A DNA stretch of 64,000 nucleotides, taken from Salinicoccus carnicancri Crm (GTDB lineage: Bacteria > Bacillota > Bacilli > Staphylococcales > Salinicoccaceae). Positions 34,609-36,466 of this stretch are shown here, piece by piece. Each line of letters begins with the position of its first letter. Positions within the stretch are counted from its first letter, which is position 1. The position numbers were made by a program, and so were the translations under genes. The stretch spans positions 62,001 to 126,000 of the forward strand of contig NZ_ANAM01000006.1 in the NCBI RefSeq assembly GCF_000330705.1. The letters run 5' to 3'. The notes under the pieces are model-generated. The model worked only from the letters and a program-made list of their open reading frames with translations, was not told the origin of the DNA and searched no databases.

Positions 34609-35424
34609 ATGGAAATTTACGAGTTTGGAAAAGAACTGATCAGTGAAGCGGGCGATTTCATCAGAGGAAGGATGCTTGAGGATTTCAGGGTTGATGCAAA
34701 GCTGAACCCGAATGACCTGGTTACTGATGTAGATCATGAAACCGAAGCGTTCATATACGAGCGGATACTTGAACACTGGCCGGAGCACAGGATTATAGGC
34801 GAGGAAGGCCACGGCACAGATGTAGAAGATACGCGTGGTGTCCTCTGGATAGTAGATCCGATTGACGGTACACTGAATTTTGTGCACCAGCTTCAGAACT
34901 TCGCCATTTCCATTGGTGTCTATATCGACGGCAAACCATATGCCGGTTTTATCCTTGATGTCATGAATGACAACCTGTACCACGCCTTGGCAGGGCAAGG
35001 GGCATATAAGAATGACGTTCGCCTTGGCAGGGTACAGGGTACACACCTCTCGAAGTCGCTCGTTTCACTCAATTCGAACTGGGTGGTCAAAGAAGGAATC
35101 GGGCATACGTTCACCGAAATTGTGAGAGATGCCCGTAGCACACGATCCTACGGTTCGGCAGCGCTCGATTTCGTAAATACAGCCCAGGGTATAGTAAGCG
35201 CTGCGCTTTTCTTCAGGCTGCATCCATGGGATTACGCAGCAGGTATGATCATTCTGGCTGAGACAGGCGGTGTCATGACAAACCTGCTTGGTGAAGAGAT
35301 CAGTATTCTGAGAAAGGGCAGCGTGCTTGCAGGGAATCCTGAAATCCATGAAGAACTGAAGCAGTATTTCACACGTGATGAGAAGTTCATTGACAGTCAC
35401 CGGAAGGCTCACGGCGAAAAATAA
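34609..35424 (+). CDS. Inositol monophosphatase family protein
   Basis: The 271-residue Mg2+-dependent phosphatase has the family motifs IIGEEGHG, WIVDPIDGTLNFVHQ and HPWDYAAGMIILAETGG, which carry the metal ligands. The substrate may be inositol phosphate, NADP or another small phosphate; the family is broad. The ATG at 34609 has GAGGTGG six bases upstream; an in-frame ATG at 34594 lies before it. Its end overlaps the convergent NERD-fragment gene by 16 bases, and its terminator lies inside that gene. Confidence 0.88.
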   Translation: MEIYEFGKELISEAGDFIRGRMLEDFRVDAKLNPNDLVTDVDHETEAFIYERILEHWPEHRIIGEEGHGTDVEDTRGVLWIVDPIDGTLNFVHQLQNFAISIGVYIDGKPYAGFILDVMNDNLYHALAGQGAYKNDVRLGRVQGTHLSKSLVSLNSNWVVKEGIGHTFTEIVRDARSTRSYGSAALDFVNTAQGIVSAALFFRLHPWDYAAGMIILAETGGVMTNLLGEEISILRKGSVLAGNPEIHEELKQYFTRDEKFIDSHRKAHGEK

Positions 35425-35708
35425 TATATACGTTCCTTATTGTCCAGCTTCCTGAAGCTGGACTTTATTACTTTCTGCAGTGTATATTCGGTGAGACCAA
35501 TATTAATGTGTTCTTTTATGTCCCGCCTTGTATATACTTCATCCGGTATGATTTTCGTATAATTAAGGAAATAGTGCCGGATCTGATTTTCAACCCCAAC
35601 CACAACTCCGCAGTCACTGCACATGAAAAGCCTGCTGCTCAGAATATCCATATCAAATGAATGGCAGTCGGAGCATTTGATACCTTTTCTATAGCTTTCC
35701 ATGTTCAC
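35409..35708 (-). CDS. C-terminal zinc-ribbon part of a split NERD protein
   Basis: The frame from the GTG at 35708 gives 99 residues, but it is open upstream to the slippery site at 35759. It encodes KCSDC and MCSDC (two CxxC pairs of a zinc ribbon) and then a winged-helix-like segment. Staphylococcal NERD-domain proteins end in such a zinc ribbon plus helical domain, so this is the second part of the gene beginning at 36292. No ribosome binding site precedes the GTG at 35708 or the ATG at 35702. Independent translation is therefore doubtful. Confidence 0.6.
   Translation of the reverse strand: MNMESYRKGIKCSDCHSFDMDILSSRLFMCSDCGVVVGVENQIRHYFLNYTKIIPDEVYTRRDIKEHINIGLTEYTLQKVIKSSFRKLDNKERIYYFSP
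35442..35470 (+). terminator. Terminator of the inositol-phosphatase-family gene
   Basis: GTCCAGCTT and AAGCTGGAC pair around CCTG, followed by TTTATT. The hairpin is inside the coding sequence of the convergent minus-strand gene. Confidence 0.7.
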
Positions 35709-35728
35709 AGTGTATTCTCTGCAGCTTT

Positions 35729-36292
35729 TCAGAATTTTGTCGAAGCCGGGTGATGGTTCTTTTTTCTGATCACCGCCGAATGCTCTATCGCTTTCAGGTA
35801 ATACGGCAGGTTCTTCACATCGAGGAACAGGTCGGAACGCCTGCCCTGCAGACCGAATTTGCTGTTCATCATCACATATTTCAAAATGATGGGACGCTGG
35901 TATTTCCCTTCATCGATAAGTTGGGAGCGGAACATTTCATAAATGCGTTCGCTCCTGTTCAAATCAAGCGCCGCTTCATGATTGTCCCTGCAAAGTATGT
36001 TGAATGGGTTGATATAGAACTCACCTGCAAGATCGTGCAGGACGAAGAGGTAGTAGCAGTAATCCGTAACGATGAGCACATTGACGATTTCATAGTCGCT
36101 GTCGATGAGCATTTCCGTGTGCCAGTGTATACTCATGTTCTGCGTTTTGATCCTGGCCAGTTCCCTTTCGAATCTTGCCTCCAGCTTTTCCATGCGCTGC
36201 ATCGCGCGGAATTCCTGCTTTTCCGTATCGGAGAAGGGGAGCCGGTTGTAGAGGAATTCATACACTTTCAGTTTTTCATGCTTTTCTCTCAT
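35729..36292 (-). CDS. NERD-like domain protein, N-terminal part of a split gene
   Basis: The 187-residue product has a charged helical start (about 1-55) and then a region like the NERD (nuclease-related) domain: HWHTEMLIDSDYEIVNVLIVTDY followed by YYLFVLHDLAGEFYI. The usual catalytic ExK of NERD nucleases is replaced by LHD, so nuclease activity is doubtful. The ATG at 36292 has CAGGAG eight bases upstream. The frame stops at 35729, nine codons after an in-phase A_AAA_AAG. A -1 shift there joins it to the zinc-ribbon part and gives a 294-residue protein of normal family length. Confidence 0.65.
   Translation of the reverse strand: MREKHEKLKVYEFLYNRLPFSDTEKQEFRAMQRMEKLEARFERELARIKTQNMSIHWHTEMLIDSDYEIVNVLIVTDYCYYLFVLHDLAGEFYINPFNILCRDNHEAALDLNRSERIYEMFRSQLIDEGKYQRPIILKYVMMNSKFGLQGRRSDLFLDVKNLPYYLKAIEHSAVIRKKNHHPASTKF
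35759..35765 (-). other. Candidate -1 ribosomal frameshift site A_AAA_AAG
   Basis: On the minus strand the zero-frame codons are AGA AAA AAG, exactly the X_XXY_YYZ phase of the E. coli dnaX slippery heptamer. GGCGGTGATC, a 9 of 10 match to a perfect Shine-Dalgarno sequence, lies immediately upstream. The -1 frame is open from here through 35409. No strong downstream hairpin is visible. A simple one-base deletion in the A run is the alternative. Confidence 0.45.
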
Positions 36293-36378
36293 TTCTGTCA
36301 CTCCTGTCAGTTGAATTACAGCTATTGTCGGCTCTGAGTGAATTTTATGCAAAGCGCAGAATTTTGAAAATGGGCATG

Positions 36379-36427
36379 AAAAAAGGAGGGTTTCAGGAAA
36401 ACAGTGACCTGTTTCCCATAATCCTCC
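36379..36427 (-). terminator. Terminator of the small membrane protein gene (minus strand)
   Basis: A long imperfect hairpin (GGAGG...CCCTCC outer stem, GGGAAACAG...CTGTTTTCC inner stem) is followed by six T on the minus strand. Confidence 0.75.
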
Positions 36428-36466
36428 TGTTCAGCGGGCAGAAGCCCGATATTTGCATTTGCAGTG

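Follow-up and report, generated by a model that had tools for sequence, protein, structure and literature searches.

What is to be made of a gene whose two halves lie in different reading frames and meet at a slippery sequence? The question is raised by a gene on the reverse strand of the window, the term used here for the whole 64,000-nucleotide stretch of Salinicoccus carnicancri Crm that was analysed (contig NZ_ANAM01000006.1, positions 62,001 to 126,000). An earlier note, made from the sequence alone, had described the two frames as related by a -1 shift at a heptamer in the exact dnaX-type phase, and this layout is confirmed: the zero frame runs from 36292 to 35729, the second frame continues through 35409, and the junction codons in the zero frame are ATC AGA AAA AAG AAC. 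The shifted product, recomputed as 176 + KK + 116, has the 294 residues that had been given for it, and the near-perfect Shine-Dalgarno sequence placed directly upstream is indeed there (GGCGGTGATC at 35777-35768, identical to GGAGGTGATC at 9/10 positions). The -1 frame is open from zero-frame codon 127 on, well upstream of the slip site. The features of the locus, in window coordinates, are the following:

35729..36292, reverse strand: ORF1, zero frame, diverged NERD domain, 187 aa, from ATG at 36292 to TGA at 35731-35729
35409..35765, reverse strand: ORF2, -1 frame, 118 codons including KK, then the stop at 35411-35409
35759..35765, reverse strand: slippery heptamer A_AAA_AAG, in ORF1 phase AGA AAA AAG
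35768..35777, reverse strand: Shine-Dalgarno-like GGCGGTGATC, likely a lineage-specific upstream stimulator
35729..35731, reverse strand: zero-frame stop TGA, 27 nt past the heptamer
35610..35675, reverse strand: zinc ribbon CxxC-14-CxxC within ORF2, with four invariant Cys
35418..35594, reverse strand: winged-helix-like C-terminal domain of ORF2, from the AF2 model and weak Foldseek matches
36299..36305, reverse strand: ORF1 ribosome binding site AGGAGTG, read from the sequence
36342..36370, reverse strand: possible promoter TTTTCA-17-TAAAAT, a 9/12 match to the consensus, the number of such matches not being above chance

Between DUF5325 and the frameshift gene (36372-36450, reverse strand) a strong hairpin is followed by TTTTTT, the whole stretch having an energy of -34.6 kcal/mol, which suggests that the gene has its own transcript. 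At the other end, suhB (end 35424) and ORF2 (end 35409) overlap tail to tail, and the terminator hairpin of suhB (GTCCAGCTTCCTGAAGCTGGAC, then T-rich; 35442-35463, forward strand) lies within the ORF2 coding sequence on the opposite strand. A search of the frameshift-gene region found no known RNA families.

Comparison of the orthologous sequences makes it very probable that the gene is expressed through a conserved programmed -1 ribosomal frameshift of the dnaX kind. Translation without a shift would give a 187-aa protein with the NERD domain only and a short, probably disordered tail, the residues past the slip site being unstructured in the AF2 model (pLDDT 44). Ribosomes that slip on A_AAA_AAG, with tRNA-Lys(UUU) re-pairing in tandem, would make a 294-aa protein with NERD, zinc-ribbon and winged-helix parts. 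The likely stimulator is an upstream GGCGG in the window's clade and a stem-loop just downstream in most relatives. The C-terminal half would most likely enable the long form to bind DNA; the short form may tune or partner the long one, at a ratio set during translation. We infer the slippage itself, its efficiency, the production of two forms and the roles of the isoforms from these features.

The gene has orthologs in 30 of the 33 family genomes, sampled as one genome per species, and in five of the six genera, at protein identities from 97% down to 39%. The locus order DUF1054 - suhB - [gene] - DUF5325 - typA - ylaH is common to the family and Macrococcus, so that the frameshift genes of both are orthologs; the Mammaliicoccus-like matches L049 and L050, paralogs that lack this synteny, were left out. 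The alignment of relatives that the earlier note had proposed as a check gives a uniform picture: all 30 family orthologs, drawn from 30 separate assemblies, share a frame break at one linker, and none has an uninterrupted frame. All 12 genomes of the window's genus have the -1 arrangement, and 24 of the 30 are of this type (Salinicoccus, Jeotgalicoccus, Aliicoccus and genus g6); the remaining six, all Lacicoccus, have a +1 relation. In-phase A_AAA_AAG is kept in 24/24 of the -1 genomes, including genus g6 at 39-40% protein identity, and the zero-frame stop follows the heptamer at 15-27 nt throughout. The persistence of the break in 30/30 relatives argues for a real device that makes two products from one gene, rather than a mutation or a sequencing error.

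The heptamer as such is no rarity here: the window has 31 copies of AAAAAAG, where dinucleotide shuffles predict 10.7. Its presence alone therefore proves nothing, and the evidence lies in its position, phase and conservation. The last of these was measured over 165 ORF1 columns as synonymous identity, the fraction of the sequence pairs agreeing in the residue that agree in the codon too. The slip-site codons reach 0.90 (AGA), 0.84 (AAA) and 1.00 (AAG) against a mean of 0.49, and rank 6th, 8th and 1st of the 165; in this alignment the two genus g6 sequences align one codon off at the slip site. Elsewhere in ORF1, lysine is encoded by AAA 197 times and by AAG 84 times. The only lysine tRNA found in the window's genome is tRNA-Lys(UUU), the slippery lysine tRNA (PMC4066793). 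The run is A6 in 22 of the 24 -1 genomes, as it is in the window, and A8 in the other two (L010 and L017), which keep the same -1 relation.

The stimulators are less constant. The Shine-Dalgarno-like element has a duplex energy of -9.3 kcal/mol in S. carnicancri and the two genomes nearest to it (L007-L009) and is absent in most others; GGCGG lies about 8 nt from the slip site in these three and in no genome outside that clade. This spacing fits the GGNGG rule of PMC4066793, where GGNGG 6-17 nt upstream is listed among the experimentally stimulatory Shine-Dalgarno sequences. A Shine-Dalgarno element as family-wide stimulator was rejected, being strong only in L007-L009. In most -1 genomes a stem-loop is predicted directly after the slip site instead. 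Among Salinicoccus its z score is -5.8 in L018, and it is weak to moderate in L011-L016. The values are -2.3 to -3.5 in eight of nine Jeotgalicoccus (L027 has a different fold), -3.6 in Aliicoccus, and -2.8 and -3.7 in genus g6. Six pairs of the Jeotgalicoccus stem show compensatory changes; the Salinicoccus stem shows one-sided changes only, which is weaker support. For the window's own clade no downstream structure is predicted over 45-130 nt (z 0.4 in the window), so that frameshift efficiency may be low there, and in L010, L017 and L032 neither stem-loop nor Shine-Dalgarno was found. Most -1 genomes thus have a stimulator of one kind or the other, and from the sequences stimulators appear to turn over between lineages while the heptamer stays. 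The earlier proposal of programmed frameshifting is accordingly upheld as regards the conserved break, heptamer and phase and the purifying selection on ORF2, but not as regards the Shine-Dalgarno-like element, whose place is taken in most relatives by the stem-loop.

The six Lacicoccus genomes appear to have replaced the site as well. CCC is the sole proline codon kept in 6/6, followed by AGT or GGC, and the proline codon before it varies (CCA, CCC, CCG). In L019, L022 and L023 the +1 frame is closed by stops upstream, which leaves only the last ORF1 codons for the shift, and the only tRNA-Pro anticodon found in Lacicoccus is UGG. In Listeria phages CCC is known to serve as a +1 site (PMC5009743), and we infer from the codon pattern that it may be the +1 slip site here. 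In the tree the +1 clade forms a single group (100/100) inside the -1 family; six state changes suffice for all 45 sequences, deep placements being unsure. Relatives in more distant Bacilli are fused in one frame, mostly as proteins of 300-348 aa, which indicates that the two halves belong together; fusion in one frame is probably the ancestral state, as judged from these sequences.

In Macrococcus this linker holds an A tract. The relation is -1 with A9 (six genomes) and +1 with A10 or A16 (three genomes), while one genome with A10 and one with A15 have a single frame; the base before the tract differs between lineages, and an ORF2 start is lacking in seven of the nine broken genes. Four orthologs without the tract are in frame, indicating that some lineages can do without two forms. 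At another locus a further A9 tract (CAAAAAAAAAGTCAGACAATCAAYG) is conserved in five Macrococcus species (G050, G052, G054, G055, G056); in the count of A9 tracts in Macrococcus genomes, the pattern was too narrow to serve as background. One assembly (L048, G053) has three copies of the ORF1 segment before the poly-A tract, with unknown bases between them; this probably arose as an artefact when contigs were scaffolded at the homopolymer.

Four other explanations have to be weighed against programmed frameshifting. The simple loss of one A (seven to six), which the earlier note held to be the main alternative, or a sequencing error at that point, would make the locus a pseudogene or a mis-assembly. 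Indel errors most often involve one base of a homopolymer, and the outgroup relatives are fused; still, this explanation can be given practically no credence, as the same break occurs in 30 separate assemblies of five genera, the two A8 lineages keep the -1 relation, and Ka/Ks is far below 1 in both parts (ORF1, 0.02-0.09 in pairs with unsaturated Ks; ORF2, 0.08-0.25 in every compared pair but one, in which Ks is saturated). Both frames are under purifying selection. It is also very improbable that these are two overlapping genes, with ORF2 started by termination-reinitiation coupling at the ORF1 stop. From the slip site to the first CxxC of ORF2 there is no ATG, GTG or TTG in 12 of the 30 genomes (11/24 of the -1 type and 1/6 of the +1 type), where ORF2 must therefore be reached by a shift; in the others starts exist, mostly without a Shine-Dalgarno. 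The -1 frame is moreover conserved right from the slip site (KKEPSPG, KKAxASG), relatives are fused, and coupling would leave the conserved A_AAA_AAG codons and the stem-loops unexplained. What speaks for coupling is local: ATGATG or TTGATG overlaps the ORF1 TGA in the Salinicoccus genomes L011-L014 and L016, which would permit coupled initiation there, and in Jeotgalicoccus meleagridis (L032 / L079) a GTG with an AAAGGA Shine-Dalgarno overlaps the stop. The latter species keeps the -1 relation and the heptamer without a stem-loop, and has perhaps switched to coupled initiation of ORF2.

Transcriptional slippage on the A run, as the source of the shifted product, is improbable to nearly the same degree. 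The Macrococcus tracts, where the frame state follows the tract length, and the A8 runs of L010 and L017 would suit it; however, 22 of the 24 -1 genomes have only A6, in exact ribosomal phase and mostly with downstream stem-loops, and slippage by RNA polymerase is normally tied to longer runs according to the main text of PMC3711429. Runs of about nine or more A or T at the break, the mark of such slippage, occur only in Macrococcus (A9-A16). Appreciably more weight, while still unlikely, falls to a tolerated indel whose full-length product is rescued by slippage, a neutral compensation in which the short form has no role. This explanation concerns the purpose of the arrangement and is compatible with a real frameshift. 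In its favour, one product can be enough, as the several one-frame orthologs of Macrococcus show, and the short form has no known function. Yet one indel in the A tract would mend the frame, and it is mended in none of the 30 family genomes; synonymous conservation at the slip codons is among the highest in the gene, and stimulators (stem-loop, Shine-Dalgarno) accompany them; and Lacicoccus switched the sign to +1 and is still broken.

With a programmed frameshift as the preferred reading, the evidence leans slightly towards a wider one, in which one orthologous gene keeps its output of two isoforms while lineages swap the device: -1 at A_AAA_AAG with a Shine-Dalgarno or stem-loop, +1 at CCC with tRNA-Pro(UGG) only in Lacicoccus, and slippage or phase variation at A9-A16 in Macrococcus. 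If so, selection would act on the ratio of NERD-only to NERD-zinc-ribbon protein and not on any particular signal. Since sister lineages changed stimulator, slip direction or tract and yet stayed broken, the target of selection can be addressed directly.

The NERD/zinc-ribbon identity proposed in the earlier note holds by profile-profile comparison, but neither half of the window's gene reaches the Pfam cut-offs for NERD or zinc ribbon; the best single member, L082, scores 18.9 bits with NERD (PF08378), whose cut-off is 22.1. The ORF1 family profile matches NERD-zinc-ribbon proteins over 166 columns (hhalign probability 99.1, E 4.5e-19), and the ORF2 profile matches their C-terminal part (hhalign E 6e-12). 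The AF2 model of ORF1 (mean pLDDT 82.8) has an alpha/beta nuclease-like fold. In the hhalign alignment the NERD residues QID and ExK are replaced by IVN and VLH, and by this loss the domain is probably without nuclease activity. The model of ORF2 (mean pLDDT 86.5) consists of the zinc ribbon and helices followed by a beta hairpin; C31, C34, C49 and C52 are invariant in 24 aligned sequences, as are five further residues. Foldseek returned no match at E < 0.001 for either ORF. The weak matches of ORF1 include nucleases (Bax1, E 3.6e-3), and the best matches of ORF2 include winged-helix domains with weak E values. No solved relatives were found by sequence for ORF1, and none that were significant for ORF2. 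The modelled ORF2 half is likely nucleic-acid-binding. The window's genome has six further NERD matches, one of which (L002, G000:C2:14715-15035) carries an in-frame TAG and is a pseudogene or another recoding case.

Conserved programmed frameshifting is known from only a handful of non-mobile bacterial genes (dnaX, prfB, copA, chlD, cso2). The gene described here would be a new one, family-wide in staphylococcal relatives, and no prior report of a NERD-zinc-ribbon frameshift gene was found in the literature searched. Annotations of these genomes may show the 294-aa proteins as pairs of short genes or as pseudogenes. The gene also offers a way into the function of NERD proteins, which has been little studied (PMC9040797). 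Bacillales NERD-zinc-ribbon proteins (PF08378, about 300 aa) share its domain order and length; unlike the frameshift clade, which lost both QID and ExK, they keep these residues and are encoded in one frame. SmdA of Staphylococcus aureus is likewise a diverged Staphylococcaceae NERD protein without several conserved NERD residues, but it is membrane-anchored, essential and encoded beside metK, with no zinc ribbon mentioned, and by position it is not the ortholog (PMC9040797).

Among known recoding systems, the GeneTack clusters described in the main text of PMC3711429 (magnesium chelatase, DUF111 and others) are similar in being cellular genes with a conserved break, an A-rich slippery site and fused relatives elsewhere; clusters with long A runs are thought there to slip at transcription. 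That main text names no NERD or staphylococcal case, and an earlier automatic prediction of a NERD cluster in the GeneTack lists is possible. E. coli dnaX shares the heptamer and its phase, an upstream Shine-Dalgarno and/or downstream stem-loop, and two isoforms with a common N-terminal part. In contrast to dnaX, the NERD gene would yield the longer product by frameshifting, encodes an unrelated protein and has stimulators that differ from species to species; candidates reversed in this way are discussed in PMC5009743. The closest parallel to the change of sign between Lacicoccus and its sister genera is provided by the Listeria phages PSA, A118 and A500, in which +1 shifting uses a CCC proline codon and homologous genes of different phages shift in opposite directions, -1 or +1 (PMC5009743), although those are phage structural genes and this is a chromosomal one.
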